Shown here: positions 30,183-48,967 of the stretch, piece by piece | How the letters are laid out: each line of letters starts with the position of its first letter | How positions within the stretch are numbered: the first letter of the stretch is position 1 | NCBI GenBank assembly: GCA_021162935.1 | Contig: JAGGXR010000043.1 | Location: 1-48,967 of the forward strand | Length of the DNA: 48,967 nucleotides | Reading direction: 5' to 3' | Source: Deltaproteobacteria bacterium | GTDB lineage: Bacteria; Myxococcota_A; Polyangia; HGW-17; SLPX01 | The notes under the pieces: model-generated | Databases searched by the model: none | What the model saw: only the letters and a program-made list of their open reading frames with translations | Told to the model about the DNA's origin: nothing | Program-made: the position numbers and the translations under genes

Positions 30183-30492
30183 CGTGTCACCTCGACTGCC
30201 GCGCAATCCCCGACAGGGCCATCACAGAGCCGTCAGAGCCGACCACGCGTGCTGATTCGTGGATGTCACAGATCCTGGGTTCGGTCAACCCCGGGCGTCC
30301 TGGCCGACACGCCGAGAAATCCGTGTCATGGACCAATCGCGCCACGTGACCCGCGCGGCCTCACGAAAACCGTTGTGGACTCCGGCGTCACTAGAAGCAT
30401 CCAACCCGACCACAGACGGCCCATTGTCCGATGCAATGGCGATGCGTGAACAAGGCTTTCTCACCACTTTGTCGATCGAGTTGAAAAACACG

Positions 30493-30522
30493 TTGACAGC
30501 CCTGACCAGATATCCCTAGATT
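30493..30522 (+). promoter_or_regulatory. Promoter of the first P-domain lipoprotein gene
   Basis: TTGACA (30493-30498), 18-base spacer, TAGATT (30517-30522). The second paralogue has the same layout upstream, which supports the call. Confidence 0.6.
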
Positions 30523-30531
30523 TAGTGGTTG

Positions 30532-30587
30532 CGATGGGATGGAACGATCACCTGCAGTGGACAGAGTGCGATGCAGCCATCCCATCG
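30532..30587 (+). promoter_or_regulatory. Leader inverted repeat, 11-bp perfect arms
   Basis: CGATGGGATGG at 30532-30542 pairs with CCATCCCATCG at 30577-30587, with a 34-base loop that can form a further CTGCA/TGCAG stem. It begins right after the inferred transcription start, so it should fold in the mRNA leader. Confidence 0.6.
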
Positions 30588-30663
30588 AAAATGGGACGAA
30601 AAACAAACGAGCCACACAAACAAAGGTAGAGCGGTCAACCGCCCACCACAAGGAGGTCTTGAA

Positions 30664-33663: not shown

Positions 33664-33683
33664 CGAGTCTGTCCTGACCGGAA

Positions 33684-33712
33684 AATCCGGCCCGCTGCCA
33701 GCGGGCCGGATT
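33684..33712 (+). terminator. Strong hairpin after lipoprotein copy 1
   Basis: Perfect 13-bp stem AATCCGGCCCGCT / AGCGGGCCGGATT with a 3-base loop, 20 bases after the stop codon. There is no long T-tract, so it may act as an attenuating or 3'-stabilising hairpin. Confidence 0.7.
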
Positions 33713-33931
33713 GGCACCTTCTCTATTCGGCGCTCGCCCGCGGCATACCTGGGCCCGCCGAGCCCCCGCGATTCAATCCCCAACGTCCATGCTCCCAACG
33801 CGCATCCCTTTTCATGCGACATCCTGCCTGGACGGAGCCAAAACTCGTAAAAACACAGCGTCTGGACCGCTCGGCCCTGCCTCAAAAAGGCGCCATTGGG
33901 CAACAAATCCACCCGACTCAAAAAAAAGCCG

Positions 33932-33961
33932 TTGACCCGGCCTGCGAATCCTGACTAAGAA
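33932..33961 (+). promoter_or_regulatory. Promoter of the second P-domain lipoprotein gene
   Basis: TTGACC (33932-33937), 18-base spacer, TAAGAA (33956-33961), matching the spacing of the copy 1 promoter. Confidence 0.5.
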
Positions 33962-34043
33962 CAAACAGTCATAACGATCGGGCGGGACGAACAAAAAACA
34001 ACGAGAAACATAGAGAAACGACCATGGTGAAGGAGGTTCGATA

Positions 34044-37000
34044 ATGAAACGACTATTTTTGGCAATCACATTCTTGGCGGGTGCCACGTGGCTCGTGGCA
34101 TCCTGCAGTGACGACTCCCACTCGGGGCCCAAATGCGGGGACGGAGTCTGCGATTCTGGCGAAACAGCGGCCGACTGTCCAGCCGACTGCGGCTGCGGAA
34201 ACGGTGTGGTGAACCAAGGTGAGCAGTGCGACGGTCAGGACATGGGCGATACCCCGACCTGCCAAGACCAAGGATTCGAGGGCGGCACCCTGAGCTGCAA
34301 CGGCACGTGCCATTACGACACGACCCAATGCACTGGTGGGTCCCAATGCGGCAACGGAACCAAGGAAGGGACCGAACAATGTGACAAAACCGACCTTGGT
34401 GACCAGACCTGCCAGGATAAGGGCTTCGACGGCGGCGAACTGGGCTGCGACCAGAACTGCCACCTGGATATCTCGGGCTGTTGCAATGACTCCTGCGACA
34501 CGGACGGCGCCAAAAAGTGCCTGGGCGAGGTGCTGCAAGCCTGCCAGACGGGGGGCACCGGCTGCCTCGCCTGGATCAACAACACCGACTGCTCCACGGC
34601 AGGCGGCCACTGCGTGACGGACGACTCGGGCGCCCATTGTGAAATCCCCTGCACGAATCACTGCCAAACCGATGGTGAACTGCGGTGCCACGGCGACATC
34701 CTGCAAGTCTGCAGCATGCAGGGCGACTGCCTGGACTGGGCGGATCAAACCGACTGTACGACCACTCAGCAGTTTTGTTCTACCGATGGGGGCACGGCCC
34801 ATTGCGACACGGCGCCACAAGGGGACCGATGCGCGAATCCGATCATGGTGACCTCGACGCCCTTTACCATGGATGGCACTGACATCACGGACGACTACAC
34901 GGACGCGTACGACTTCTCGGGAACAGACTGCGGCACGGGACACGGCGCAGAGGCGATCTTCAGCATCGACCTGACCTCGGGGCAGGTCCTGCACATGGCT
35001 GAGACTGGAAGCATGGATGCGGTCATCCGCGTGCTCGACACCTGCGACGCCACGGCAGCCTGCCTGTTCAGCGAAGACTACGGCGAAACCGATCTGAGCT
35101 TTGTCGCTCCCGCAGACGGAACCTATTTCGTGATTCTGGAAGCGTATTTTTCCACTTCCACGAGCGTGGACTATCATTTCACCATCGATGTGCCGCCGCC
35201 CGAGTCACAGTGCGGCGATGGCGTGGATAACGACTTCGACGGTGACACCGACTGCGAAGACAGCGATTGTGCCGGCCAAGGCTCTTGTGAAGCCACCGAG
35301 GCCACCTGCAACGACAGTTTCGATAACGATGGCGATGGCGACACCGACTGCGCCGACAGCGATTGTGCCGGCCAAGGCTCTTGTGAAGTCACCGAGGCCA
35401 CGTGCAATGACTCATTCGACAACGATGGCGACGGCGACATCGACTGCGCCGATACCGACTGTTTCGGCCAAACCGGCTGCACCACCGAGGCGCTGTGCGA
35501 CGATGGGGCGGACAACGACGGCGACGGCGTCACCGACTGCGCCGACTCCGACTGCCAGACCCTGGTGGCCTGCCAGCCTCTCAAGGCCATCTATCAGGAT
35601 TTCGACAGCGACGATCCCATGGACCTGGTGGCCCACAGCATCACCTTCACGCGCGACACGAACAACATCAACGGCTACACCTGGGCGGTCACCCAAGACG
35701 CCACAACCTACCCGATCACACCCGGAAGCGGCACGACGAGCGCCACCATGGACCTGGGCGACGACGAATCTCAGGCCTACGCGTTTGCGACCATGACGGG
35801 CGGCTTTCCGTTCTACGGCACCACGTATCACAGCATGTTCGTGGCCTCAAACGGATACATCGCCCTGGGCGTCGATGACCACTCTCTCCACCCTTCGGCT
35901 GCCAGCTTCCTGCCGAACGGACCCAAGGTCGGCGGCTACTCCGTGGACCTGGCGCCAAACCACGGCGGAACCATCACCATCGACGAGTTCGCTCACAGCG
36001 TCGTGGTGACCTACGACCAGGTGCCCCGATACTCCAGCGGCGAGCTGGAATCCTTCCAGATCGAGATGCTCGATGACGGCACCATCAAGTTCCACTACAT
36101 CCACAGTGAATTGACGGATGAGGGCGTCGTGGGTATCACCTCCGGAGTCGGGATCACGCCCTATCCGCCTGAAACAGACTTCGTGCCTTTTGCTCCGGCA
36201 GACACGGTGCTGATCAACGAAGTGTCCTACGACAATCCAACGACCGTCGATGCAAACGAATTCGTCGAATTGGTCGGGGCCCCAACCATGCGGAGCCTCG
36301 ACGGCTACACCCTCGTGCACCACGACGGTGACACGGGAGCGGTCATCTGGGCCCTGCCCCTGGACGGCCTCCGCACGAGCGATGCGAGCGAAATTCTCAT
36401 CGGCCCGTCCACCATGGCCGGAATCGACATCAGTTGGGCCCAACTCGGACTGCCCAACGAAACGGACGTCCTGGACGACGGTCCGGACTCGCTGGTGATC
36501 TACGCCAACTGGGATGGATCGAGTGGCGACCCAGTGGACGCGGTGGAATGGGAAACCGGCGCCTCACATTCTCATGCCGAGACTGCGGCCTGCAAGGGGG
36601 TCGAAGATTCGGACTGGAACACGTCCATCGGCCGGTACCCGGCCGGTCACGACACGGATGACAACTCGTCCGACTTCTTCGTGCAGTGGTGGCCCACGCC
36701 CGGCGAGCCCAACAACCAGCCCGGACCGGACAGCACCTACTTCCGCCTGACCGCCTCGACCCAGTCGGACGAAGCGGCCCAGTTCCCCGTCGCCATCCCC
36801 GACAACGACGCTTCGGGCATCTCGGTGCACCTCAACACGAATAACGTCACGGGATTCAATCTCACCTCAATCACTGACATCCAGGTGGGGATCAAGATCT
36901 CGCATACATGGATTGGCGATCTGATCGTGACGCTGACAGACCCGACGGGGATGATGCGCGAACTGCGCCACCGCTCCGGAAGCTCTACGGAGAACATCAT

Positions 37001-37151
37001 GACCGTGTTCGACATGGTCGACACGACCGATGGAAGCGACTTGGACGACTTCAACGGAGACGACCCCAGGGGCGAGTGGATCCTGAACGTTTCGGACAAC
37101 GCTGGCATCGATACGGGCGACCTGGAAGAATGGGTCCTGTGGGTGAAGTAG
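34044..37151 (+). CDS. Large mosaic surface lipoprotein, copy 2
   Basis: 1035 residues, same architecture as the preceding gene: signal peptide with LVASC (Cys 20), CGDG/CGNG Cys-rich repeats, PPC-like domain, Asp/Cys repeats (four here, three in copy 1), the GGFPFYGTTY beta domain, a lamin-tail-like domain (VLINEVSYDNPT) and a C-terminal P-domain ending EEWVLWVK. Several stretches are almost identical in DNA to copy 1 (for example around 34990-35050 and 35700-35790) while the Cys-rich N-terminal region is far more diverged. This suggests duplication followed by gene conversion or selection. ATG 34044 follows AAGGAGGT. Function is unknown; a surface-exposed adhesive or calcium-dependent protein is inferred. 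Confidence 0.88.
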   Translation: MKRLFLAITFLAGATWLVASCSDDSHSGPKCGDGVCDSGETAADCPADCGCGNGVVNQGEQCDGQDMGDTPTCQDQGFEGGTLSCNGTCHYDTTQCTGGSQCGNGTKEGTEQCDKTDLGDQTCQDKGFDGGELGCDQNCHLDISGCCNDSCDTDGAKKCLGEVLQACQTGGTGCLAWINNTDCSTAGGHCVTDDSGAHCEIPCTNHCQTDGELRCHGDILQVCSMQGDCLDWADQTDCTTTQQFCSTDGGTAHCDTAPQGDRCANPIMVTSTPFTMDGTDITDDYTDAYDFSGTDCGTGHGAEAIFSIDLTSGQVLHMAETGSMDAVIRVLDTCDATAACLFSEDYGETDLSFVAPADGTYFVILEAYFSTSTSVDYHFTIDVPPPESQCGDGVDNDFDGDTDCEDSDCAGQGSCEATEATCNDSFDNDGDGDTDCADSDCAGQGSCEVTEATCNDSFDNDGDGDIDCADTDCFGQTGCTTEALCDDGADNDGDGVTDCADSDCQTLVACQPLKAIYQDFDSDDPMDLVAHSITFTRDTNNINGYTWAVTQDATTYPITPGSGTTSATMDLGDDESQAYAFATMTGGFPFYGTTYHSMFVASNGYIALGVDDHSLHPSAASFLPNGPKVGGYSVDLAPNHGGTITIDEFAHSVVVTYDQVPRYSSGELESFQIEMLDDGTIKFHYIHSELTDEGVVGITSGVGITPYPPETDFVPFAPADTVLINEVSYDNPTTVDANEFVELVGAPTMRSLDGYTLVHHDGDTGAVIWALPLDGLRTSDASEILIGPSTMAGIDISWAQLGLPNETDVLDDGPDSLVIYANWDGSSGDPVDAVEWETGASHSHAETAACKGVEDSDWNTSIGRYPAGHDTDDNSSDFFVQWWPTPGEPNNQPGPDSTYFRLTASTQSDEAAQFPVAIPDNDASGISVHLNTNNVTGFNLTSITDIQVGIKISHTWIGDLIVTLTDPTGMMRELRHRSGSSTENIMTVFDMVDTTDGSDLDDFNGDDPRGEWILNVSDNAGIDTGDLEEWVLWVK
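35259..35450 (+). repeat. 96-bp tandem repeat in lipoprotein copy 2
   Basis: Two units, 35259-35354 and 35355-35450, each 32 codons, encoding DSDCAGQGSCE followed by the DNDGDGD segment. Copy 1 of the gene has one unit fewer. Confidence 0.9.
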
Positions 37152-37270
37152 TGCTGGTTCTGGGCGAGCCAGGGTCAGCTGAGGCCCGGATCGACGAAAG
37201 AGTCCTACCAATCGATTGAAGACACAATTTTCCTCTGTCGAGACACCGCCCAAAAGCATGCACATCGATG

Positions 37271-39286
37271 CTACTTGAGCACTGGAACCCCCTCCAATGC
37301 CGAAGTCAAAAAGAGCCGATAGTCTCTCATGGCCGACGCCACGTCGAACACCACGAAATGACCGTCGTCGCCGTCCTGCGCGTTGTACTGCACGAACACA
37401 CCCGTGGCCGCACCGTCCGCCAGGTTCCCACTCACGGGACGAGCCGTTGCCTTGGATTGACCCGCAAGGGCAAAACCGACAAGAGGCTGTACCTCCGGGC
37501 CGGTCCAGGTCAGCCCAAGGGACACGCCCAATGCTTCGAGGAGATCCGGTGGTACGTAGTGGTCCACGTACCCTTGGCTCTGAAAGACCGACTTGACCTG
37601 GTAGTCGAACGGCGGTTCGGCCGTGATGAGCCGGGCGTAGTTCGTGGGATCCGACGGGTCCGTGTAGGTCTGGATGAGCGTCAGGGCTGGATGAAACCGG
37701 TCGATTGTTTCCTCGTCGAGCATCAAGGCCACCAAGGCCGGGATGTCATAGGGTTCGGTCTTTTCCGTCAGGGACAGGATCATGTTCCCTCCGGCCCCTG
37801 ACAGCACAGCCGCCTTGACGTCCGGCTCGAAAGCCAAGAACGGGGGCCCAGTGATCCCACCCTGGGAATGTCCCATGAAAAAGATGTTGTGCGGATCGAA
37901 CCGAATGGGGGTGCCAGTTCCAGGAGCCGAAGCCACGGCGAAGGCCTCGACGAGTCGGATGAGTTGAAAATCGTCGCAGGCCGCCTGGCGAACGTTGTCG
38001 AGTCCAGCGGCTGGATTCTGGTAGTTGAAAAACATTGTTTCCGAATCGCATTGCTGCCCGCCGCACCTCGTTCCATGGAGCACCTGATCGATCCCCACCA
38101 CAGCAAATCCTGCCACCACGGATGCCCCATCTTTGACCGCGGCCAGGTTGTCTGCCACGCCGGCCCGCACAAACGTCATGTAGTCACCGCCCGTCCCGTG
38201 CGCATAGAGCACCACGGGCCAGCCAGCCGCCGGCATGGTTCCCTTGGGAACGCTCAACGCAAAACGCAGCGACTCGGTACGCACCAACTTCGGCATCCCA
38301 TCCTGGTCCAGATCGATCTGCCCTCCGCTGTGCAGGTACGGCGGATCGCCCTGTTGATAGTTCGGACTGTCGTAGGTGCCCTCATACAAATCGAAATGGT
38401 CGTAGCTCGACCGGTGCGAAAAGGCCGTCGGATCCGGAGCATCGGGCATGTCGCGATAGACCGCCTCCCGCAGCTTCCCCATCAGGCTGACAGGATCCTG
38501 GGTCGTAAACAGGGCCGCGCTTACCACATGGCTCGTGGCGATATCCTGATCGGCTAGATACTGCCTCAAAGGCGCATAAGCCTGCCAGGCCCGATGGCGG
38601 ACATCGCTACCTCCCGGGTCGCTGCTGGCCAAGACCACCTTGAGATCCTGGCCGGGACGAACCGGTTTGCCGTCCTCACCCAGAATCGCATCCGTCACAA
38701 TGGCTGCATAGGTGGTCTGCGGCCGGAGCACAAAGCCAGGGTGGGGCAACAGGGCCAACGTGTTCGTACCGACGTAGGATCGATCCAGCGAGTCATCCAC
38801 ATCCACTGGCACCCGCTCGCCATAATCGGGCGAATCCGCATCCACCGACACGAGGAAGCAGCCGGATCCCGCTTCGAGCGTATCAGCCGCTGCACTCGGC
38901 AACGAACTCGCATCCACCGGTCCGGTGAAACGAAAATAGATGGCACCCTGAGTGGAGAAGCCATGGATCGCCCCATCGAACAGCTTGATGTAGTCGTCCG
39001 TCATGGCCGTATGCGACGGAAACAGGGTCAGATCCAGCGTGCCGTCATCGTGACGGCGCACGTCGTTGGGCCAAGGCAGATCAAAATAGGTCTCCTGGCT
39101 GTCGGGCTGCTGCAACAAGAACACCGCCTGGGTCTGGGACAGCGCATTTGGATGGTCCGAGCAGGCTGCGACCAAAAACAGCGCACCAACGACGGCCAGA
39201 ACAAACAAAAGCGGCGGCCCGACCCGCCGCCCGGTCTTCGACATCGAGGCCGGCCCTCGGCATCCATTCTTGAATCCGTCAGTCAT
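37271..39286 (-). CDS. Lipase/esterase-like alpha/beta hydrolase lipoprotein (Pla-1/cor lipase type)
   Basis: 671 residues. A signal peptide ends LVAAC (Cys 42). The N-terminal half holds an Ig-like SbsA-type module (IYFRFTGPVDASSLP, LRPQTTYAAIVTDAI). The C-terminal half is an alpha/beta hydrolase with HGTGG (363-367, oxyanion hole) and the nucleophile elbow GHSQGG (472-477). The closing His is probably in DGHFVVFDV. This order is that of extracellular lipases of the Pla-1/cor type, so hydrolysis of lipids or esters outside the cell is inferred. ATG 39286 has GGAG six bases upstream; ATG 39244 is an alternative that gives a more typical signal length. It is convergent with lipoprotein copy 2. 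Confidence 0.82.
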   Translation of the reverse strand: MTDGFKNGCRGPASMSKTGRRVGPPLLFVLAVVGALFLVAACSDHPNALSQTQAVFLLQQPDSQETYFDLPWPNDVRRHDDGTLDLTLFPSHTAMTDDYIKLFDGAIHGFSTQGAIYFRFTGPVDASSLPSAAADTLEAGSGCFLVSVDADSPDYGERVPVDVDDSLDRSYVGTNTLALLPHPGFVLRPQTTYAAIVTDAILGEDGKPVRPGQDLKVVLASSDPGGSDVRHRAWQAYAPLRQYLADQDIATSHVVSAALFTTQDPVSLMGKLREAVYRDMPDAPDPTAFSHRSSYDHFDLYEGTYDSPNYQQGDPPYLHSGGQIDLDQDGMPKLVRTESLRFALSVPKGTMPAAGWPVVLYAHGTGGDYMTFVRAGVADNLAAVKDGASVVAGFAVVGIDQVLHGTRCGGQQCDSETMFFNYQNPAAGLDNVRQAACDDFQLIRLVEAFAVASAPGTGTPIRFDPHNIFFMGHSQGGITGPPFLAFEPDVKAAVLSGAGGNMILSLTEKTEPYDIPALVALMLDEETIDRFHPALTLIQTYTDPSDPTNYARLITAEPPFDYQVKSVFQSQGYVDHYVPPDLLEALGVSLGLTWTGPEVQPLVGFALAGQSKATARPVSGNLADGAATGVFVQYNAQDGDDGHFVVFDVASAMRDYRLFLTSALEGVPVLK

Positions 39287-39437
39287 ACCATTCTCCACCA
39301 TTGATTCGACTCCTCGTGGAACATCCCACGACAGTGGTGAGCCCCTTGAGCCCACGACCCAAAATCAGGTCCTGTTGGGATTCGGTCTCTCACCGTCCTC
39401 CCCTATCCGCCTGGAGGATCGACGGTCGGAAGGGAGC

Positions 39438-39752
39438 CTACGATCCTCGATAAACGGCCGGATCGATCCCGAACTTTCGAAGCTTATTGTACACGGTTCC
39501 ACGGCTCACGCCCAGGGCGTCGGCCACATCCGGAATTGAACCCTGATGCTCCACCATGGCAGCGACGAGCAGCTCCTTTTCCGCTTCTTCCAGATTCAAA
39601 CTCGAAGCACGCACCTGCTTTTGGACGGGAATCCCGGTCAGGGTCCCCCCCGCCGGCACCAGGTGAAAACCTCGATGGGATCTCCGCCCGCTTCCATGCG
39701 ATCGGCACGGGTCTGGTGACTTGGTCCCATGCCCCTCCTTCCCGGCTATCAC
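39438..39752 (-). CDS. Short Fis-type helix-turn-helix protein, possibly frameshifted
   Basis: The C-terminal ~50 residues (EEAEKELLVAAMVEHQGSIPD in part, then DALGVSRGTVYNKLRKFGI) are a Fis/NtrC-type DNA-binding helix-turn-helix. The N-terminal half in this frame (GTG 39752) looks non-coding. Another frame starts with ATG near 39740 right after GGAAGGAGG and encodes MGPSHQTRADRMEAGGDPIE before reaching a run of seven G on the coding strand (39651-39645). One extra G there would join it to the HTH. So the gene may be intact as drawn, broken, or phase-variable. It lies upstream of the lipase-like gene on the same strand and could regulate it. Confidence 0.6.
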   Translation of the reverse strand: MIAGKEGHGTKSPDPCRSHGSGRRSHRGFHLVPAGGTLTGIPVQKQVRASSLNLEEAEKELLVAAMVEHQGSIPDVADALGVSRGTVYNKLRKFGIDPAVYRGS

Positions 39753-39958
39753 CTGCGACCATGACGAGCAATAACGCCACAGGAGAAGCTGCAGCCGCCA
39801 CAGTTCTTGCGAACGTGCTTCGTACCGATTTCCTTTCTGTAATGCAAATGGCTGATTTGCGGAGGCTGGTCAGAATACATCTGCCATCTGGAACGCCGAT
39901 CCATCCCGCCTGGCTTTGTCGCTCCTCGCTTGCGTTCCTTACGGTCCAATTCGTACAA

Positions 39959-40759
39959 TCACGGTCCGTGCCAGATCCGATATCTCAGAAGCGCCCTCGC
40001 CGGTGAAGCATCCGCGCCTGAAATTTTCAGGGGAAGCGCCACCAGGTCATACCAGCCGCCGACCGCCAATCTAAGATCGAGCGTCTCCAGAATCCAAATC
40101 GGCGGCTCTTCTCTGAGCAGAATGTGGTGCACAGGAAAACCAGAACCCTGTCCGGATTCAACAGACAGGGCATCGATACCCACGAGACGGACGTCGGTTT
40201 CGCCCCTCAGGTATCGAGCCGCATCCTCGGTCAGGAAGGCTGCACTCGACCCCGAACCCGCCGATCCAGGTCCGCCGGCTCGACCAACGCCATCCGATGA
40301 GGTCCCATCCCTTCCGTTCGGCTGTGCCACTGTCTTGATCAGCAGCCTTGTCACGCCACGCAGGTCGAACCGAGCCAGTGCGGTTCCAGAAATCCGATCC
40401 GAATCTGCACTGAGATCCAAAAGAAGGGCTGGGCCCATGAGCAAGCTCACCGGTGCTGCATCCACCCCAAGGGCACCACCAAAATGGGCAGGCGCGTCCA
40501 GGTGTGTTCCGCTGTGCGTCCCCATCTCGATACGACTCAAGCTGTAGCTCTTTGGTTCGGTCGCAATCCAACGACTCACTGGCTCCATGCGAAAAACCGG
40601 ATCGCCTTCGTAGCAAGGCGTGGCCGGGCCGAGCGCCACGCTCACGTCGATCCATGCCTCGCCGTCCCCATCGTTTCGCACTGCCGACGATCCAGGATCC
40701 GCCCTGTTCCCTGCTCCCGAAGGAAGAACCAGGCCATCGAGAACCCCACGATCGAACAT
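39959..40759 (-). CDS. Cyclase/kynurenine formamidase-family metal hydrolase
   Basis: A 266-residue protein of the cyclase family (PF04199 type). The metal site HSGTHLDAPAHF lies at residues 82-93 and the preceding YEGDPVF is also typical. The C-terminal GVKNA-like region is replaced by LLREEPPIWILETLDL. KynB hydrolyses N-formylkynurenine, but no tryptophan-catabolic genes are near, so the substrate is unassigned. Residues about 147-173 (AQPNGRDGTSSDGVGRAGGP and on) are a Gly/Ser-rich insert not expected in the core. ATG 40759 follows GGAGGTG. It is divergent from the phaR-like gene. Confidence 0.85.
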   Translation of the reverse strand: MFDRGVLDGLVLPSGAGNRADPGSSAVRNDGDGEAWIDVSVALGPATPCYEGDPVFRMEPVSRWIATEPKSYSLSRIEMGTHSGTHLDAPAHFGGALGVDAAPVSLLMGPALLLDLSADSDRISGTALARFDLRGVTRLLIKTVAQPNGRDGTSSDGVGRAGGPGSAGSGSSAAFLTEDAARYLRGETDVRLVGIDALSVESGQGSGFPVHHILLREEPPIWILETLDLRLAVGGWYDLVALPLKISGADASPARALLRYRIWHGP

Positions 40760-40876
40760 ATCGCACCTCCGCGTCGTCAGAAAATGCGGTGGCTGAATCG
40801 GTGATCACGACAAGGGTGCCCGGTCGAGCCGCCGTCGGAAATACCGGGAATACATCGATCTGCCGCACATGATTCA

Positions 40877-40885
40877 TGCTATACT
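40877..40885 (+). promoter_or_regulatory. Extended -10 promoter element for the phaR-like gene
   Basis: TGCTATACT is an extended -10 (TGnTATACT). No good -35 lies 16-18 bases upstream, consistent with an extended -10 promoter. The leader is about 40 bases. Confidence 0.45.
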
Positions 40886-40931
40886 GGGCAAACAATCCAT
40901 GGGCAAGAGGCATCAGACACGGAGCGCCATC

Positions 40932-41516
40932 ATGGCTCACAAGAAAACGGCTGCAATCCCCAAGAAACGGATCGATTCCGAACAGCATGCCAAAGATGTC
41001 GCGAGCAGCCAGCGTGAAGAGTCGCCGTTGCAAGATGATGGCCCTATCGAAATCCGAAAGTATTCGAATCGACGGCTCTACGACACATCATCGAGCAGTC
41101 CGGTCACCCTGGCGGACCTTGCTTCTATGATCCGGAACGGCACGGAAATCCGAGTGGTGGATGCATCCACGGGAGAGGATCTCACCAGGACCATCTTGCT
41201 GCAAATCATCTTGGAAAACGAACAGGATGCGAGCCTGCTTCCCGTCTCTTTCTTGAGACGCGTGATCGAAACGGGCAGCGAAGCAGCAGCGGATTCCTTC
41301 CGAACCATGTTCGTCTCCACCATGGAACTGTTCAGTCAACTCGTGGAGGAATTCCAGGATCAGGTCTCGGACATGACCCAGATAGGATCGACCTTTCCCC
41401 TTCCCTTTCAATGGATGGCGTTTCTGAACCGGGCCATGGAGCAAATACCTGGCAGGGACGACCGGGAAGCCACGCCAGACGAGGGGAAAAAGCCCGTCTG
41501 GCCGCCTCCACTGTAG
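40932..41516 (+). CDS. phaR: Polyhydroxyalkanoate synthesis regulator PhaR-like
   Basis: A 194-residue protein with the PHA accumulation regulator DNA-binding domain at residues 40-98: IEIRKYSNRRLYDT, VTLADLASMIRNG and VDASTGEDLTRTILLQII are the family signature. A helical region follows (SFLRRVIETGSEAA..., MELFSQLVEEFQDQV) that usually mediates oligomerisation or granule/phasin binding. In known cases PhaR represses phasin genes and senses polyhydroxybutyrate. No PHA synthase is in the window. A 21-residue upstream extension is possible, but ATG 40932 has GGAG seven bases before it. Confidence 0.9.
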   Translation: MAHKKTAAIPKKRIDSEQHAKDVASSQREESPLQDDGPIEIRKYSNRRLYDTSSSSPVTLADLASMIRNGTEIRVVDASTGEDLTRTILLQIILENEQDASLLPVSFLRRVIETGSEAAADSFRTMFVSTMELFSQLVEEFQDQVSDMTQIGSTFPLPFQWMAFLNRAMEQIPGRDDREATPDEGKKPVWPPPL

Positions 41517-41522
41517 GTCACA

Positions 41523-41573
41523 CCTGCTGTTTCTGGCAGGGACCGGCGTCCCTACGAAAACAGGCGTCCCTAC
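41523..41573. terminator. Palindromic element between two convergent genes
   Basis: CCTGC (41523-41527) pairs with GCAGG (41536-41540), and alternatively GGGAC (41539-41543) with GTCCC (41548-41552). The 11-mer GGCGTCCCTAC occurs twice (41545-41555, 41563-41573). It probably serves as a bidirectional terminator, or is a small REP-like element. Confidence 0.45.
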
Positions 41574-43330
41574 CAGGAGGTCATCTTTTCCAGAACCGTA
41601 TAATGGGGCAAAATGTCCACGGGGATGCCCTTCAAACGCTTGAGGGCATCGGCCAGGACCGGAGACATGACCCCGTACTTGGTGACGAATCGTTTGGCGG
41701 CCTTGTAGTCGCCACGCGCCTCGAGGGTCAAGAGATCATGCGCCAGATCGCGCACCGCCTGCTTGATCTTGGAAAAATCGAGCTGGAACCGATGCGTTGC
41801 CTTGTCGTATAGGATGGCGCCCTTATCCGTCAGGTAATTGAAGGAAATCAGGTTTGCGCGGCCATGCGCCTCGGTGGCTCCGAATCGAATGGCCCGGAAA
41901 AAGCCAGCCAGATACGACGCGTAGACACGACGGTCCAGATCCTTGGGCAGCACGCCCTTGCCGATGAGATACGACGACAGGTAGAGGCCGGTGATATCCG
42001 CCTTGCCTTCTTCGATGGTCGAATACAGATCCAACAGTTGGTGGTTCACATCTGTCTTGACCTTCTTGCCGTTGCGCTCCACCACGATCTGGCCCGGGCC
42101 CTGACCGTGGGCCGTCTCATGCATGAGCGTATTCGTGAAAAAGGCATCGAAGTTTACTAACTTGAGCTGCTCGGGATCCATGAGTCGCCGGGCGATGGGC
42201 ATCAAGATGGCGTTGAACTTGGCATGTCCCACGTTCTTGAGGAGCACGAGCTTGTACCCCTTCTTCTGCCGAACCACCTCGTCGTTGGGCAGGTTGAAGG
42301 CCAAGGTCTGGACACCGACCTTCGTGTCGCCTGCCGTGAACAACTCGTCCACCACCGTGATAGGCAGGCTGCCTCCCCGCTTGAAGTTCTTGTCCTTGTC
42401 GGCAATGGGCAGCGCATTCTCCATGTCCTTTTTGTACTTGGCGATCTTCTGGAGTCTGGCGCTGTAGACTGGATCCCTGAGACACACAAACGATTCGAAC
42501 GAGGCCTTGTACCCAAACAGTCCATCTTCATAGACTTCGTACGGACCGATGACCACCTCGATCGTGCCGTCTCCGAAATCGAGCCACGCCATATCCGAAG
42601 GACGATAGTCGTTCGTGGAAAAAGCCTTGGCTCGAAGCTCCAGGTACTTCTTGAGCCTGGCATCCTTGGTAAGCGCCGCTGCCTCTCGCAGATATTTCGC
42701 TGCCCGCTGCAGGAAGGGCCGATAGGCCGTCGAGTAAGGAATCGCCACGAGTTCCTTTCCCTTCCTCTGGATGACCGTAAAGTAGGATTTGAATGCTTTC
42801 GCCTTGTCCGGATGCGCCTTCACAAAAGTCTCGAACTCTTTTTTGGTCATATCGGTCGGATAGAACCCGGCACCAAGCGGCTTCTTCCGCCTGCCGTAAA
42901 ACGGCTTGTCGTGATCGAGGCGATCCCACGGGCCAGACATCATGTCGAAATAGGCGAGCACGTCCTTGAGCTTCGGATCGGCTGCGAGCTTCTCCCGGAG
43001 CTTCGGATTCTTCGGGTCCACCTGTATCAGAAACAGGTCATCCATGACCTCGGCCGCCTGGACGAGTTTTTTGATCACCTTCTTGTCCGTTGCCGACAGC
43101 CCCTTGGTATCGAAGTTCAGCGACGTGGGCACGAACTTGGCCAACTTGGCACGCACCGAAGCCGTGCGATCCTGAGCACGAGCCGCCGACCGGACCGCCG
43201 TTCCCTGAGCCGCAGTCTTGGTCTTGGCAGACTGTGTCCCCGCCGCCTGCTTCGTCTCGTCCCCTGCGTTCTTCTTGCCACAGCCCATCATCAAACCTCC
43301 AAGCAACAAACCCAACAACACTTTCTTCAT
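41570..43330 (-). CDS. M49-like (dipeptidyl-peptidase III-related) lipoprotein metallopeptidase
   Basis: 586 residues. A signal peptide ends MMGC (Cys 17), followed by a Lys/Ala/Thr-rich linker and a large helical domain. The zinc site reads HETAHGQGPG (residues 404-413) with the second Glu in EEGKADITGLY (440-450). This HExxH plus EExxAD pair is the pattern of bacterial relatives of DPP III; classical M49 has HExxxH and EECRAD. Peptidase activity in the envelope is inferred. Start: ATG 43330 lies eight bases after GGGAG; ATG 43336 is too close. It overlaps a palindrome at its 3' end and is convergent with phaR. Confidence 0.8.
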   Translation of the reverse strand: MKKVLLGLLLGGLMMGCGKKNAGDETKQAAGTQSAKTKTAAQGTAVRSAARAQDRTASVRAKLAKFVPTSLNFDTKGLSATDKKVIKKLVQAAEVMDDLFLIQVDPKNPKLREKLAADPKLKDVLAYFDMMSGPWDRLDHDKPFYGRRKKPLGAGFYPTDMTKKEFETFVKAHPDKAKAFKSYFTVIQRKGKELVAIPYSTAYRPFLQRAAKYLREAAALTKDARLKKYLELRAKAFSTNDYRPSDMAWLDFGDGTIEVVIGPYEVYEDGLFGYKASFESFVCLRDPVYSARLQKIAKYKKDMENALPIADKDKNFKRGGSLPITVVDELFTAGDTKVGVQTLAFNLPNDEVVRQKKGYKLVLLKNVGHAKFNAILMPIARRLMDPEQLKLVNFDAFFTNTLMHETAHGQGPGQIVVERNGKKVKTDVNHQLLDLYSTIEEGKADITGLYLSSYLIGKGVLPKDLDRRVYASYLAGFFRAIRFGATEAHGRANLISFNYLTDKGAILYDKATHRFQLDFSKIKQAVRDLAHDLLTLEARGDYKAAKRFVTKYGVMSPVLADALKRLKGIPVDILPHYTVLEKMTSW

Positions 43331-43685
43331 CACCATCTCTCCCTTCTGCTCCATGGACAGCGCCTCGGCGTCACCATGGTCGGCAGATGTCAGGACATCG
43401 AGCTTTACGACAGGCGGCCTGGACCAAGCCATTCCTTCTCGGTGAAAAACCACCCTTCGCTGCCACCGCCAGGAAACTATCAGATCCAGCGATTTTCAAA
43501 AAGGCTGAATCCGTCCCTGTCCGGTCCCGGAAGTCGGTCCGACTCGAAACAGCAATCTCCTGTGGAACCACGAACAGTCGATGAAGCACATCCAAAACCG
43601 TGACGGTACGAGGTTCTGTTGACACAACACAACCGACCAACTACGATCCTGTTTGTCATATGTTGGTTGGCTTAAGGAGGTCCCC
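43331..43685. other. Divergent intergenic region
   Basis: About 355 bases between the M49-like gene and the ConA-like lipoprotein gene. The right part has a strong plus-strand promoter (43619-43647). The minus-strand promoter of the M49-like gene was not identified. Confidence 0.55.
43619..43647 (+). promoter_or_regulatory. Sigma-70 type promoter of the ConA-like lipoprotein gene
   Basis: TTGACA (43619-43624), 17-base spacer, TACGAT (43642-43647). The short leader ends in TAAGGAGGT and GTG 43686. Confidence 0.65.
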
Positions 43686-44657
43686 GTGGCATTCTTGCGA
43701 CGTAGCCACATGCCCATTGCAGTCGTCTTTTTCATTCTGCCGTTTCTGGTGATCGACTGTGGAAACAAGGCCTCCCACGACAATGCGGACGCTCAGGCCA
43801 ACAACCACAGCGATGCGACCATGGCCGAAGCTGGATCGGACGCGACTGTTCCCGATGCACAAATTTCTGTTGATGCGGATCTGGATGGCGGCGTCGATTC
43901 AGGTGCCACTACTACATTCACTCCCTATTTCTACGACGACTTCGAAAGCTACTCGACCGGTGAATCTCTGACCGGGTTTCATCCGTTCGACGCGTCTGGA
44001 CGAACCACGGCATCCACCGAACAGGCCCACCGTGGACAGAAAAGTGCACGCATGGAAATCGATGCAGGAGACAAAGGTGGATTCGGACGCTGGGGCGGTA
44101 TCCTTCCCATCGACCCGGCCCTACCAAAGGGCTCCGAAGTTTGGGTCCGTCTGTGGGTGTACTGGCCGTCCAGCTTCCAGTTCACCGCCTCGCCTTGGAT
44201 GAAGTTCCTCCGGCTGCACAACCGCACGGGCTCCGGCGATAACGGAGGCTACAACGACCTGTACGTGGACAACGCCGACGGCACGACATCAGTCCTGCGG
44301 ACCATCAAGGAATTCGACGACGTCTGGGCGGTCTACGACGGCCCCAAACTCCCGCGAGACACCTGGGAGCGCTACGAAATGTACCTGTTCATCGACGACA
44401 AATCCGTGGACGACGGCGGTCAGGGGCGGGTGCGGATCTGGCGCAACGACGAACTGATCTTCAACCGCACGGACGTGCCCACCATCACCGAAGCCCAGGG
44501 CACCATCAACTCGTTCTACCTGTTTACGTACTGGAACAATGAAAATCCTCCCAACAACCACCTGTACGTGGACGATTTGGTCGTCGCCACGAGCGCCAAC
44601 CCACCTCCGAACACAGACAGCCACGGCAACGTATGCATCGGAAACTGGCCACAATAA
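43686..44657 (+). CDS. Secreted lipoprotein with ConA/polysaccharide lyase-like domain
   Basis: 323 residues starting at GTG 43686 behind AAGGAGGT. A hydrophobic signal ends LVIDC (Cys 25), followed by an Asp/Ala-rich linker to about residue 75. The rest is beta-rich with DDFESYSTG, HRGQKSARMEI, VWVRLWVYWP, KFLRLHN, WERYEMYLFIDD, GRVRIWRNDELIFN and LYVDDLVVAT. This series is typical of jelly-roll glucan/heparin lyase-like domains that bind or cut polysaccharide. Catalytic residues cannot be assigned, so binding alone is possible. Confidence 0.75.
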   Translation: MAFLRRSHMPIAVVFFILPFLVIDCGNKASHDNADAQANNHSDATMAEAGSDATVPDAQISVDADLDGGVDSGATTTFTPYFYDDFESYSTGESLTGFHPFDASGRTTASTEQAHRGQKSARMEIDAGDKGGFGRWGGILPIDPALPKGSEVWVRLWVYWPSSFQFTASPWMKFLRLHNRTGSGDNGGYNDLYVDNADGTTSVLRTIKEFDDVWAVYDGPKLPRDTWERYEMYLFIDDKSVDDGGQGRVRIWRNDELIFNRTDVPTITEAQGTINSFYLFTYWNNENPPNNHLYVDDLVVATSANPPPNTDSHGNVCIGNWPQ

Positions 44658-44722
44658 CTCGTTGAGGCAAGCAGCCCATCTTCGGCGGCGGGTTGATTCT
44701 CCACCGTACCGCATGGCAGGTA

Positions 44723-44746
44723 TCGGGTCGGATCCTCACGACCCGA
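44723..44746 (+). terminator. Hairpin after the ConA-like lipoprotein gene
   Basis: Perfect 8-bp stem TCGGGTCG / CGACCCGA with an 8-base loop, about 65 bases after the stop. No T-tract. Confidence 0.5.
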
Positions 44747-44755
44747 CGGGCGCTG

Positions 44756-44784
44756 TTGCAAAAATCCAATCCATGCAGGATAAC
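44756..44784 (+). promoter_or_regulatory. Weak candidate promoter for the MopE-motif lipoprotein gene
   Basis: TTGCAA (44756-44761), 17-base spacer, GATAAC (44779-44784). Confidence 0.35.
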
Positions 44785-44930
44785 TACTTTTGCAGGTACT
44801 TCCGTATGGGTCCAACACGAAAGACGAGCGTTCCAGAAAAACGAGCTTTCATAAGGAATGGTTCGTGGAAGATCCATTCGAATGAATGATCAGCGGGGCC
44901 CGACGGCTTCGAATGAGAAAGAACACTCAC

Positions 44931-46388
44931 ATGAAAGAACACATACGGTCACGTGGATGGTTGGCGTCGGGACTGATCCTGTCGGGCCTCGTCGTAGTAT
45001 CCGGCTGCACCCCAAAGGGGACCAACGCAAACACAGACGCATCCACATCGAATGATACATTGACCATGACCGATGCCTCCGTGGCGCCTGATCGGTCCGA
45101 TTTGACCGACGGGTCGACCCAAAGACGCGACGGAAGCGCCTACCACCTCGACGCAGATGTGGACCTGGACGGGTGTCCCACCTCCATGCAACATCCCTGT
45201 CCGAACCCATTGCCAGACGGCTGCGGCCCCCAGGAGCTGTGCGGCAACGGCCTGGACGATGACTGCAACGGACAGGTGGACGAAGGCTGTAGCTGCACCG
45301 TGGGCGACGTACAGCCCTGCTTCCTGGGACCGCCGAGTTACGTGAGCACCGGGGCCTGCACGAGCGGCACGCAGACCTGCCAAGGAAGCGGCGAATTCGC
45401 CACCTGGGGTCCTTGCGAGGGAGGCATCTGGCCAAGTCCAGAAGTGTGTGACGACCTGGACAACGACTGCAACGGATGCGCCGACGACGGTCTGTGTTGC
45501 GAACCTCCCCTGTCCTGTCCAGATCCGGAAGACATTGCGGATGCCCAGCCCTTCGTTCCCTATCAACTCGACGGCACCCAATGGTATTCCGGCCCGGCCA
45601 ACTCCTGGAAGTGGGAAATCGAAGGCGGTCCTTGTGACCAACTCCTAGGCAACACAAGCTACGAAATCACGGCGGACAACACGTCTCATCCGACCATCAC
45701 CTTCACCCTGTCGGGCGACTACACGGTTACCATGACCGTCACCACCGACTCGGAAACGTACACCTGCACCTTCATCGTCCATGTAGTGGGCCCCGGCCTG
45801 CGCGTGGAACTCTGCTGGGAAGGGACCGGAAGCAGAGACATCGACCTCCATCTGCTGCGCTCCGATTTCCACGCGGACTGGTGCGCCAGCAATGATTGCT
45901 TCTTCGATGACTGCAAGGCCACGAACTGGGACATGGGATCTTGGGGCTATCAAGACGGCCCCATTGCTGAATGCGCCGGGACGCCCATGGGCAGCGATTG
46001 GCAATCTCGTGGGTCCTGCGCCAATCCTCGTTTGGACATCGACAACATTGATGATGTTGGTATTCCGGAAAACATCAATGTGGACACACCGGGTGAGGGA
46101 CAGAGCTTCCGCGTGATGGTGCATTACTTCGGCGGCCAGGGAGGCGAAGCGCACCCCCTCGTCAACATCTACTGTGACGGCCACCGCATCGCCACCTACG
46201 GACAGACGCCCAACCAGGTGACCGGCTTCACCACGCCAGGAGCTTGGGATTGCCAGGGTGACTCCTGGCGGGTGGCCGACGTGGTCACCCACGACAACAA
46301 TGGGCACACGACCTGCAACGTAACGGCCCTGCACCCGAACAACCAAACCGCTGGCTACCGGGTTCTCCGTGACGACACGTCATATTGA
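44931..46388 (+). CDS. Lipoprotein with MopE-type metal-binding motifs and a PKD-like domain
   Basis: 485 residues. The signal peptide ends VVVSGC (Cys 26), then an Asp/Thr/Ser-rich linker. Two Cys/Asp motifs, CGNGLDDDCNGQVDEGC and VCDDLDNDCNGCADDG, match the putative metal-binding motif of MopE-type proteins. A PKD-like beta domain follows (NTSYEITADNTSHPTITFTL in part, then DYTVTMTV). The C-terminal part has SRDIDLHLLRSD, RLDIDNIDDVGIPENINVD and SFRVMVHYF, a secreted domain common in myxococcal proteins whose role is unknown. The start is uncertain: ATG 44931 gives the best signal peptide; ATG 44913 and 44886 are in frame. Product probably on the cell surface. Confidence 0.78.
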   Translation: MKEHIRSRGWLASGLILSGLVVVSGCTPKGTNANTDASTSNDTLTMTDASVAPDRSDLTDGSTQRRDGSAYHLDADVDLDGCPTSMQHPCPNPLPDGCGPQELCGNGLDDDCNGQVDEGCSCTVGDVQPCFLGPPSYVSTGACTSGTQTCQGSGEFATWGPCEGGIWPSPEVCDDLDNDCNGCADDGLCCEPPLSCPDPEDIADAQPFVPYQLDGTQWYSGPANSWKWEIEGGPCDQLLGNTSYEITADNTSHPTITFTLSGDYTVTMTVTTDSETYTCTFIVHVVGPGLRVELCWEGTGSRDIDLHLLRSDFHADWCASNDCFFDDCKATNWDMGSWGYQDGPIAECAGTPMGSDWQSRGSCANPRLDIDNIDDVGIPENINVDTPGEGQSFRVMVHYFGGQGGEAHPLVNIYCDGHRIATYGQTPNQVTGFTTPGAWDCQGDSWRVADVVTHDNNGHTTCNVTALHPNNQTAGYRVLRDDTSY

Positions 46389-46426
46389 TGCATGAGGCTC
46401 CGGGCCGAAATCAACGAAAGGCTGCC

Positions 46427-47269
46427 ATGCCCCCACCACTGACACAGGTCCAAGGACCATTACTCCAAGTCGAGCATCTCGTGGCCGGCTACGGCGACCA
46501 CGTGGTGGTCCAAGACGTATCTTTCACCGTGATGCCAGGCGAAACGGTGGCCCTCGTTGGGTCCAGCGGCTGCGGAAAATCCACCATCCTGCGCTGTCTC
46601 GTTGGCCTACTCGAACCCATGGCGGGCATGGTGCGCCTCTTCGGCACGGAACTGTGGTCCCTGTCCGTCACGGACCGCGCTCCGCTGCTCCTTCAGGTCG
46701 GCCTCGTATTCCAACAAGGAGGCCTGCTCGGCTCACTGACCGTACGCGACAATCTGGCCCTCCCCCTCGAACTCCACCGCAACCTGTCCGACGCGGTGGT
46801 GGATCGAATCGTGGCTGCGCGTCTCGCTCAAGTCGGGTTGAGCGAGGCGGCCTGGCTCAAGCCGTCCGAATTGTCGGGAGGCATGCGCAAACGCGTCGCC
46901 GTGGCCCGCGCTGTCATCACGGATCCAAAGCTCCTACTCGCCGACGAGCCCACGTCCGGACTCGACCCCGTAGTGGCAGCGGGTATCGACGAAGTTCTGG
47001 CAGGCGTCCGTGACGCCCAGCAGACGAGCATGCTCATGGTCTCCCACGACATGGCCTCGGTCCATCGCCTGGCGGACCATATCTTGATGATGGCCGACGG
47101 CACACTCGTGGCCCAAGGTTCCTACGACGACCTTTCCCGATCGCCAGACCCGAAGGTCCAGGATTTTCTCGCTCGACGCCCGTCGCCCGAAGGTCAGGCC
47201 GGGTCGAACCTGACACACCTCTTCGACGGTGGGCCACCCCAAAACATCCCGGGCATCCCAAACCAATAG
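46427..47269 (+). CDS. ABC transporter ATPase, MlaF type
   Basis: A 280-residue ATPase with Walker A GSSGCGKST (45-53), Q-loop VGLVFQQGGLLGSLTV, signature SELSGGMRKRVAVARA, Walker B LLLADEPTSGLDP and the switch His in MVSHDM. The GGLLGSLTV and GGMRKR forms match the MlaF/Mkl group that powers phospholipid transport between the membranes. The matching permease (MlaE) and MCE protein (MlaD) are not in the window. The last ~35 residues are a non-conserved tail. ATG 46427 follows GAAAGG. It starts 38 bases after the preceding lipoprotein gene. Confidence 0.9.
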   Translation: MPPPLTQVQGPLLQVEHLVAGYGDHVVVQDVSFTVMPGETVALVGSSGCGKSTILRCLVGLLEPMAGMVRLFGTELWSLSVTDRAPLLLQVGLVFQQGGLLGSLTVRDNLALPLELHRNLSDAVVDRIVAARLAQVGLSEAAWLKPSELSGGMRKRVAVARAVITDPKLLLADEPTSGLDPVVAAGIDEVLAGVRDAQQTSMLMVSHDMASVHRLADHILMMADGTLVAQGSYDDLSRSPDPKVQDFLARRPSPEGQAGSNLTHLFDGGPPQNIPGIPNQ

Positions 47270-47622
47270 GAATGTATCAACCGATGCGCCCCAATCTCAG
47301 GGACGATTTCCCCATTTCGGACTCATGGTCGACGTCCATGATCTGCAGGACACGCAGGACAGCCGACCCAATCCGTGAACGAGCAGCCCTCCAACAGGCC
47401 ACAGAGGCTCTGTTCATCCCATCGGACGGCGCAACCGAGCAACCGAGGCCCACACAGATCCCATCAGCCGGACATTTTCCTTCAAAATCCTTTGAACACC
47501 TTCCATGGTTCGGCTAATATCCCGCCAGGCATAATCTTACAACACGAAGCACAGATGATGACGCTGTCAAAGGCCGAGCAGGCCTCGGTTGGCATTTGTG
47601 TCGTTGGAGAGACGGTTCAAGG
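47270..47622. other. Intergenic region with the promoter of the Crp-family gene
   Basis: About 350 bases. A short open frame directly after the ABC gene stop (47272-47517) has no family resemblance and is judged non-coding. The right part holds the promoter. Confidence 0.5.
47492..47520 (+). promoter_or_regulatory. Promoter of the Crp-family regulator gene
   Basis: TTGAAC (47492-47497), 17-base spacer, TAATAT (47515-47520), the best-matching promoter of the window. The leader is about 95 bases. Confidence 0.65.
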
Positions 47623-48543
47623 ATGAGGGCAAAAACCATCGGCTCGGCCGAGCACCACCTTCTCGAAATCGTGGTCCAATGCCACGAGGCAGGTTGTAAG
47701 CCCACGATCAAAGATGTGGCCGAAATGCTCGGCGAAGACATCGCACTGGTCACCGATCGGGTCGAAGCTTTGAAACAGGCGAAACTCATCGCCACCAGAG
47801 GCCGGGTTCGTGTTCTGCACGTCACTCAAAAAGGCCGAAATCTCGTTCAATCGGAAGAAGCCCGGCTGCCCGCCCTCGGTCTCGATGCCATAGACGGTCT
47901 GGCAGCCTCCCTCGATGTGCTCAGACCGCACCTGCGGGCCCGGCACTTCGATGTCAACGAGTTTCTGTGGCGCGAGGGCCAACACGCCGGCATGCTCGTG
48001 CTCATCCAGAAAGGCCGCGTCCAGGCGTACCGCGAGCCGCCCGATGGCCGAGGCCCGCTGCTCTATACGTTTGGACCCAAGGACGTCTTCGGATTCCTTC
48101 CTCTGCTCGACGGCGAACCCTACCCGGCGACGTGCGAGGCCATCGAGCCCACCGACGCCCTGGTGATGACACGAAACGGCCTTTCCCGCGCCGTGGCCGA
48201 AGATCCACAGGTGGCCATTATCCTGCTGTCGGCTCTGGGCAAACGGTTGCGTCAGGCCTTTTCGCGAGTCCAACGTTTGACCGCCAAGAGCGCCCTGGCC
48301 CGGGTCGCCGCCGAGCTGGTGGACCTGACAGGTGGCCATTTCGAAGCCGGAGGCCTCACCGTGGTGGACCTGCCCAGGTCCCATCGCCAGTTTGCCGAGC
48401 ACATCGGGCTGACTGCCGAAACCCTGTCTCGAACCATCACCCATCTCGTCCAGCAAAAGATCATCCACCGAATCGGCCCGGGGCAACTCCAAATCCTCGA
48501 CCCGGATGGTCTCAAGCTCGTGGCCCAACACCCGCCCATGTAA
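47623..48543 (+). CDS. Crp/Fnr-family regulator with an extra N-terminal winged helix
   Basis: 306 residues. Residues 10-75 form a winged helix-turn-helix of DtxR/MarR look (PTIKDVAEMLGEDIALVTDR, then LIATRGRVRVLHVTQKG). Residues ~95-205 are a cyclic-nucleotide-binding-like beta roll (FDVNEFLWREGQHAGMLVLI, then DVFGFLPLLDGEPYPATC). Residues ~218-282 carry the usual Crp HTH (RSHRQFAEHIGLTAETLSRT). Crp proteins normally have only the last two parts. FNR-type Cys residues in the sensing region are not evident, so the signal could be a nucleotide, a haem ligand or something else. ATG 47623 is preferred over an upstream in-frame ATG because of a GGAG/AAGG context, though spacing is not ideal. Confidence 0.85.
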   Translation: MRAKTIGSAEHHLLEIVVQCHEAGCKPTIKDVAEMLGEDIALVTDRVEALKQAKLIATRGRVRVLHVTQKGRNLVQSEEARLPALGLDAIDGLAASLDVLRPHLRARHFDVNEFLWREGQHAGMLVLIQKGRVQAYREPPDGRGPLLYTFGPKDVFGFLPLLDGEPYPATCEAIEPTDALVMTRNGLSRAVAEDPQVAIILLSALGKRLRQAFSRVQRLTAKSALARVAAELVDLTGGHFEAGGLTVVDLPRSHRQFAEHIGLTAETLSRTITHLVQQKIIHRIGPGQLQILDPDGLKLVAQHPPM

Positions 48544-48848
48544 GAATGAATTGCTGCAGAAAGCGAAAAGTCGCACCCATCGCCTCTTTGCGGTGATGGG
48601 GCCGCCATGGACTTTCAAATCCAAGAAAATCTTTGCGTCACCGGGCCATCCTTGCTTCGAATCAATGTACTCCATCGAAACAAGAGGCATATTCCATTCG
48701 TCGATACGGAAAAGACAGTATCCAAATCGACCAACGAATCTCAGGAACGATTGGCGCAATGAGGTGCTAATCAATATGTGGTGGGCAAGCCATGGGCGCA
48801 GGGCGCTCAACAACGGACCGGTTCGTTGCCGGTCATCCAGCAGTCGGA
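48544..48848. other. Region between the Crp-family gene and the intron-like element
   Basis: About 305 bases, less GC-rich than the genes. No supported ORF, tRNA or terminator was seen. It would be the 3' exon side of the group II intron-like element. Confidence 0.45.
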
Positions 48849-48967
48849 GTAGGAATGACCATTACTAGCCACCCCCTCCACAGATCCCAGCGAGCGGAGT
48901 TACCGCACTGGGCTCCTCCCTCGGGTAGTGACGATCAGACGCTGTTCGGGATAGGGGTGGAAAATCC
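48849..48967 (-). mobile_element. 3' end of a probable group II intron, continuing beyond the window
   Basis: Read on the minus strand the sequence runs into a domain V-like hairpin (48915-48883) and then a domain VI-like hairpin with an AGTAATGG loop, ending ATTCCTAC near 48849. That pattern resembles the ends of bacterial (class C-like) group II introns as I remember them. The reverse transcriptase ORF would lie to the right, outside the window. The exact 3' splice site is inferred. Confidence 0.6.
48883..48915 (-). ncRNA. Group II intron domain V-like hairpin
   Basis: Minus strand begins GAGCCCAGTGCGG, loops through TAACT, and returns CCGCTCGCTGGGATC. It has the GAGC start holding the AGC catalytic triad, an upper GCGG/CCGC stem, a TCG bulge at the usual place and a lower CCCAG/CTGGG stem. 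The length (33) is near the standard 34. Confidence 0.6.

Follow-up and report, generated by a model that had tools for sequence, protein, structure and literature searches.

A rare FNR-type regulator with an additional N-terminal winged helix of most likely LexA origin and a predicted target promoter upstream of fmdE–tauE

In a stretch of 48,967 nucleotides from a Deltaproteobacteria bacterium, which is referred to as the window, we have identified a gene that encodes a real and rare LexA-headed regulator of the FNR type. In the reading that we prefer, and to which we assign a probability of about 0.6, the protein is a predicted activator of the Crp/Fnr superfamily that acts on an fmdE–tauE operon and whose N-terminus has been extended by a winged helix of the LexA type. 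This reading builds on the computed order of the domains, the LexA kinship of the heads of related proteins, the recurring crp–fmdE–tauE neighbourhood and the combination of a box with a −10 hexamer matching in four of six letters in five fusion loci. Proteins of the Crp/Fnr superfamily contain one DNA-binding domain as a rule, and among the matches listed in searches of the open-licence part of PMC none concerned a LexA-head/Crp architecture. The original prediction, which had described a Crp-family regulator with a winged helix preceding the normal sensor and driven by the strongest promoter of the window, held with respect to the domain architecture, whereas its claim on the promoter did not. 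The features of the locus are compiled in Table 1.

Table 1. Features of the regulator gene and its downstream region (positions refer to the window).
Feature	Position	Strand	Basis
Fusion regulator gene	47623..48543	+	306 amino acids plus stop; ATG at 47623, stop ends at 48543
Winged helix, N-terminal, most likely LexA-type, residues 1–80	47623..47862	+	Predicted fold, profile and alignment
Linker, residues 81–95	47863..47907	+	pLDDT about 45 over residues 81–90
cNMP_binding sensor domain, residues 107–193, containing FGFLPLLDGEPYPAT	47941..48201	+	Pfam
HTH_Crp_2, C-terminal, residues 226–298; recognition helix E266-T-L-S269-R270	48298..48516	+	Pfam
FNR-like box TTGCTTCGAATCAA, 9/10, predicted site of the C-terminal HTH	48652..48665	+	TTGAY-N4-RTCAA scan
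−10-like CATATT, 4/6, 22 nucleotides after the box (class II spacing)	48688..48693	+	TATAAT match
Multi-copy group II intron, 3' end, closes the contig	48841..48967	−	RF00029 (Intron_gpII) at 48843–48917, 37.2 bits, below the gathering cut-off of 40

The boundaries initially proposed for the gene coincide with its start and stop codons, and the expected sensor and C-terminal helix-turn-helix (HTH) were recovered in Pfam as PF00027 (E 2.1e-18) and PF13545 (E 1.3e-17). With 66.5 bits for cNMP_binding (cut-off 27.5) and 64 bits for HTH_Crp (cut-off 27), the protein is a member of the Crp/Fnr superfamily. Its best sequence match in the PDB is the CRP of M. tuberculosis (3h3u and others, E 1.1e-17), whose sensor and HTH align across residues 98–281 but which has no second DNA-binding domain. 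Opposite F158 and Y167, this CRP has a glutamate and an arginine that form part of its pocket for the cyclic nucleotide. Y167 is invariant among 30 orthologues, and these replacements place the window protein outside the group of cAMP-responsive CRPs. Similarly, FNR proper uses four cysteines to hold a 4Fe-4S cluster, and the window protein, with C20, C25 and C171 as its only cysteines, does not belong to these oxygen sensors. No alignment column contains a cysteine in three or more of the 30 orthologues. Sensing by an Fe-S cluster or by cAMP was thus judged unlikely from the alignments, and the ligand of the sensor is probably neither of the two. The proposal that the first module would act as a second sensor found no support; the relatives have no counterparts of C20 and C25 except for a single cysteine in L046.

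The specificity of the C-terminal domain can be assigned with more detail. In its recognition helix, S269 and R270 are invariant across 30 sequences and E266 is found in 90% or more. We take this E-x-x-S-R helix to be the FNR/DNR pattern, which reads TTGA, and its occurrence together with TTGAY-N4-RTCAA sites defines a specificity of the FNR/DNR type, with binding being predicted from sequence. The protein shares with FNR/DNR-type regulators the sensor of the cNMP fold, the C-terminal E-x-x-S-R HTH and the TTGAY-N4-RTCAA box at class II distance, but differs from them by the extra N-terminal LexA-type winged helix, by the absence of conserved Fe-S cysteines and by the occurrence of its subfamily with fmdE–tauE.

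At the N-terminus, the proposed winged helix was borne out as a prediction, with helices at residues 8–22, 29–36 and 40–52, strands at 56–59 and 64–67 and a helix at 69–81. The AlphaFold model of this domain hence displays three helices, a two-stranded wing and a fourth helix, with block pLDDT values of 86, 86, 89, 88, 82, 80 and 72 across residues 11–80. Its layout is nearly identical in the AlphaFold model of the full-length protein, whose pTM of 0.53 leaves the relative placing of the domains unsure. The best Foldseek matches of the N-domain model are winged helices of the DtxR/IdeR/MntR and MarR families, which also appear with Z-scores of 12.0–13.6 among the best 50 matches listed by VIA-align; the absence of LexA among these best 50 excludes nothing.

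The kinship of the head becomes apparent from related proteins. The head of the window protein is unlisted for PF01726 (LexA_DNA_bind) even at E 10, and its residues 1 to about 95 yield weak matches below the cut-off to several winged-helix families in Pfam. The heads of its relatives score 42.6 (L044), 42.7 (L046), 43.4 (L057) and 30.8 bits (L107) for PF01726 at a cut-off of 23.7. A profile of four heads including that of the window, when searched against the PDB, retrieved 17 sequences, of which the top nine are LexA (best E 8.5e-12) and the remainder are mostly of the DtxR type. Since the heads of the relatives pass the PF01726 cut-off and the profile finds LexA first, the added module is most likely derived from LexA. 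In the PDB list obtained with the N-domain of the window protein alone, LexA (E 0.078) ranks below de novo designed TIM barrels, which lead the list and were dismissed as chance matches as the stretches printed for the two best of them are non-significant. Fold prediction, the LexA_DNA_bind matches in four relatives and direct similarity together support a Crp-family protein with two different modules of the DNA-binding type.

Searches for the domain architecture revealed the same order of domains in four other genomes. A scan of GTDB contigs identified 42 loci, three of which (L044, L046 and L057) align almost from end to end, and tblastn searches with five N-domains at E 0.01 returned no match in 39 of the 42. 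Most orthologues of the Crp part carry no extra head domain, and the head was absent in the close orthologues examined in related genomes (L009–L013 and L038–L043). When used alone as a query against 377 genomes of the phylum of the window at E 1e-5, the N-domain retrieved only itself. With a full-length profile built from four fusion proteins, we found a fifth fusion (L107) when searching 119 genomes related to that of L046, where full-length matches were confined to three genomes, those of L107, L046 and L057. The same profile detected no fusion other than L044 itself in 117 relatives of the genome of L044, and only L046 and L107 in 395 genomes of the phylum of L046, with at most five candidates scored per genome. 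Applied to all fetched loci at E 0.01, tblastn with the five N-domains found only fusions and other proteins containing LexA-type domains, besides a weak match to L101 (E 0.002), a locus that was retrieved through PF01726. It is very improbable that the fusion stems from accidental read-through, in frame, of an adjacent winged-helix gene or from an annotation artefact: headless orthologues are the rule, as such an explanation would suggest, but the domain order is common to five genomes, the heads of the relatives exceed the Pfam cut-off and the gene is a single open reading frame without internal stop.

In phylogenetic trees of the Crp part, L046, L057 and L107 form a clade with 100% support. 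The five fusions together do not group as one clade either in a tree of 50 rows, which requires three changes, or in a tree of 33 rows, which requires two and from which 17 rows had been dropped (long branches, among them L070, as well as near-copies, a number of Acidobacteria and the far outgroup). A single clade of all five was not rejected in the 33-row tree (AU p 0.0615), and either one gain with subsequent losses or two gains may account for the history of the fusion. A search for relatives in viral contigs, with patterns that reach close relatives only, found none, and an origin from phage was discarded. An operator upstream of the fusion gene (TACAAATGT-like) is clear in close relatives only and was set aside as a shared element. 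In L142 and L144, a TATAAT hexamer is located six nucleotides ahead of the ATG of the fusion gene, whose mRNA may for this reason be leaderless.

The trees bear on the question of whether the N-domain of the window protein was acquired independently from a MarR, DtxR or ArsR protein and would resemble the relatives' LexA head by analogy alone. Such a separate origin would be in line with the lead of DtxR and MarR among the fold matches, with the scattered position of the fusions in the Crp tree and with shuffling statistics, where the N-domain scores similarly against one ArsR (z 7.1; 1.6 for a second ArsR) and the LexA of its own genome, L087 (z 7.0), and merely 1.8 against another LexA. Against it stand the heads of L044 (z 14.1, the top of ten domains compared) and L046 (z 11.6, both from 1000 shuffles), which score by far the highest. 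The alignment with L044 extends from residue 1 to 82 with gaps of one residue (35% identity in 86 columns), and both heads are found at the same place ahead of the Crp domain. We consider a separate origin unlikely and take the head of the window protein as a diverged LexA-type head, whose kinship would be established via its relatives.

The resemblance to the LexA repressor, which comprises the N-terminal DNA-binding domain in the four relatives and the top rank of LexA when the head profile is searched against the PDB, ends at the position of the S24 peptidase, where the window protein instead contains the Crp sensor and HTH. As no S24 match is listed for the window protein at E 10 in Pfam, the protein does not belong to the LexA repressors, and self-cleavage is therefore not expected. 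The genome of the window encodes a canonical LexA (L087) and a second LexA-like protein (L086 on contig C86, 91.7 bits for LexA_DNA_bind), whose S24 domain is degraded (20.3 bits, cut-off 23.3) and carries an alanine in place of the serine of L087. Elsewhere, a stand-alone frame of 118 amino acids (L095 on contig C278 of genome G407) encodes little beyond a LexA DNA-binding domain, and in the two relatives L091 and L092 palindromes right ahead of lexA (ATGTATGTTAACATACAT; GTATG-TTAC-CATAC) are possibly SOS boxes.

Whether the head of the window protein still contacts DNA is less certain than its descent. Its net charge amounts to +2, compared to +11, +6, +9 and +12 in the four relatives, and in the recognition helix, whose sequence GWRAPGTVRDHVRAL is nearly constant across the heads of L044, L046 and L057, letters were replaced by E, D, I, A and L. 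Together with the missing PF01726 match, these features confer appreciable, if tentative, weight to a scenario where the N-domain no longer binds DNA and acts in dimerization or protein contacts. Conversely, the helix-turn-helix-wing layout is retained at good confidence and a change of sequence by itself cannot prove a loss of function. From the changed helix and the lost charge, we would expect that the head either binds another sequence or acts as an accessory or dimer-stabilizing domain.

By its Crp half, the protein falls into a subfamily that is found beside fmdE and tauE. Clustering of proteins from 32 loci identified TauE/SafE in 17 and FmdE in 12, besides ArsP_1 permeases, ArsR, Thioredoxin_3, SBF-family transporters (presumably ACR3) and others as recurrent neighbours; in tblastn searches, fmdE is present in 23 of 31 loci. 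The gene directly follows the fusion gene in L143, L144 and L145. In L144, the FmdE frame covers no more of the profile than its first third. L145 contains TauE and then DUF2490 after FmdE with a divergent SBF transporter, and L143 encodes MerT, MerR, ArsR and LMWPc within the same 19 kb. In L142, a C_GCAxxG_C_C gene takes the place of fmdE after the box, which counts against fmdE–tauE as target.

Upstream of fmdE, the TTGAY-N4-RTCAA motif reaches the full score of 10 in 15 of the 23 loci with fmdE (31 examined), a count in which L145 was scored as 6 owing to an ORF start placed too far upstream (10/10 after correction), and in five fmdE loci it scores just 7–8. In the 23 promoters whose box scores at least 8, TATAAT is matched best at a gap of 22 nucleotides, with a mean of 2.91 of 6 compared to 0.96–2.17 at the other 21 gaps; this gap is the spacing of a class II site, which is centred at −41.5. 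This count leaves out L055 and L056 with a score of 7, the box of L055 being 10/10 in the fmdE scan and 7 with a differently set upstream edge. Following the fusion gene, the box scores 8/10 in L143, 9/10 in L144 and 10/10 in L142 and L145, and it starts 28–49 nucleotides from the first base of the stop codon in these relatives and 111 nucleotides from it in the window. The hexamer at gap 22 matches in four of six letters in all five fusion loci including the window. Four places in the whole window reach 9/10 or better, and only the one listed in Table 1 is accompanied at this gap by a −10 with four or more of six matching letters. In 2000 shuffles of the 301-base stretch, the combination of both elements was never reached, and the box alone was reached in 2.45%. 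Ahead of the regulator gene itself, the box scores at most 7/10 in the window and 9–10 of 10 in six of 27 other loci without fusion. On these sequence grounds, the target operon and its promoter are well predicted.

A further possibility concerns the simultaneous use of both heads, as the original prediction had suggested a protein bridging two sites. In such an arrangement, the LexA head would occupy its own operator, in some relatives a dyad over the −10 and start, and the Crp half the site at −41.5, which would allow one protein to activate a promoter and to block it as well. Perfect dyads of 18–20 bp cover the predicted −10 and start in L143 (TATTCTGATGTCAGAATA, 22 nucleotides past the box, score 8) and L144 (ATATCGTTACATAACGATAT, 21 nucleotides past the box, score 9), whereas the 21 remaining promoters reach 6 at most. 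Each is single within its own fetched locus at up to three mismatches, and the near-constant recognition helix described above counts in favour of the bridge. However, when compared over 18 bp, the two dyads disagree at about half of the positions despite nearly identical recognition helices, which speaks against a common specificity of the LexA type, and no such dyad is found in L142, L145 and the window (scores 4, 3 and 1). The dyads could also be hairpins of the leader RNA. With dyads in two of five fusion loci, the bridge is thus not supported, and we regard it as rather doubtful. Still more doubtful appears its extension to a two-headed lineage, where LexA- and FNR-type heads would hold the dyad and the box and the head of the window protein would have evolved a new specificity.

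In the genome of the window (G000), fmdE–tauE is located on another contig, from which a group II intron has probably separated the regulator. The window contig (C107) stops 424 bases past the regulator gene inside a repeat, whose intron end recurs at the ends of five other contigs with 98–100% identity. The sole fmdE found in the genome occupies one end of contig C61 and, with this contig read in reverse, comes first, ahead of tauE and a DUF2490-like gene (24.1 bits, below the Pfam cut-off of 29.8) as in L145. The leader of C61 equally consists of a repeat, its intron end recurring on five other contigs with 96–100% identity. This end matches the Rfam family group-II-D1D4-6 with 60 bits (cut-off 49), and a diverged short copy on contig C112, which holds both intron ends in the same order, with 84.3 bits. 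From C112 and the Rfam matches, both ends belong to one group II intron family in reverse orientation. The simplest interpretation is an order of regulator–promoter–intron–fmdE–tauE–DUF2490-like, with a join of C107 and C61 that is a proposed one, as several further contigs carry this intron at their ends. The multi-copy intron, which is present in the window, at the end of C61 (L147) and in L157–L164, was found in reverse at ribosome-binding sites. With the junction deduced from the shared end and the start GTGCG, which we take as the start of a group II intron, an ATG follows within 14 nucleotides or less in all eight right ends found, and GGAG(G) is located at the junction in seven and three nucleotides away in the eighth. 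The target of the intron thus appears to be the complement of the Shine-Dalgarno sequence.

The claim that the gene has the strongest promoter of the window was not confirmed. The region 46400–48967 contains no promoter-like site, the best match upstream of the gene reaches 8/12 at 47492 compared to six sites of 10/12 elsewhere in the window, and 29500–48967 shows no excess of sites (5 versus a shuffle mean of 5.2). Further upstream, positions 46385–47266 encode an ABC transporter ATPase (best NCBIfam match MlaF, 164.8 bits, cut-off 441). It is preceded by a frame at 44886–46388 with matches to Cu-binding_MopE and PKD rather than to a permease.

In our preferred reading, the Crp half would bind as a dimer to the box centred near −41.5 and, in the active state of its sensor, activate fmdE–tauE. 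In the relatives, the LexA-type head would supply a second contact to DNA, whereas in the window protein it would have kept its fold with a changed recognition helix and the loss of most positive charge. In the genome of the window, fmdE–tauE would probably be situated downstream of the regulator gene and be split from its promoter by the group II intron, which would sit in reverse at the ribosome-binding site of fmdE.

The analysis assigns a likely function and a predicted promoter to the crp–fmdE–tauE operon, which is often found near arsenic and mercury genes and which was the subject of none of the matches listed in our searches of the open-licence part of PMC. If the doubtful two-headed reading were true, activator and repressor would be combined in one protein that may tie metal or sulfur stress to SOS-type operators. 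As a natural LexA–Crp chimera found in five genomes, the regulator offers a ready test of two questions, namely whether two heads on one protein bridge separate sites and how recognition helices drift once a fusion has occurred.
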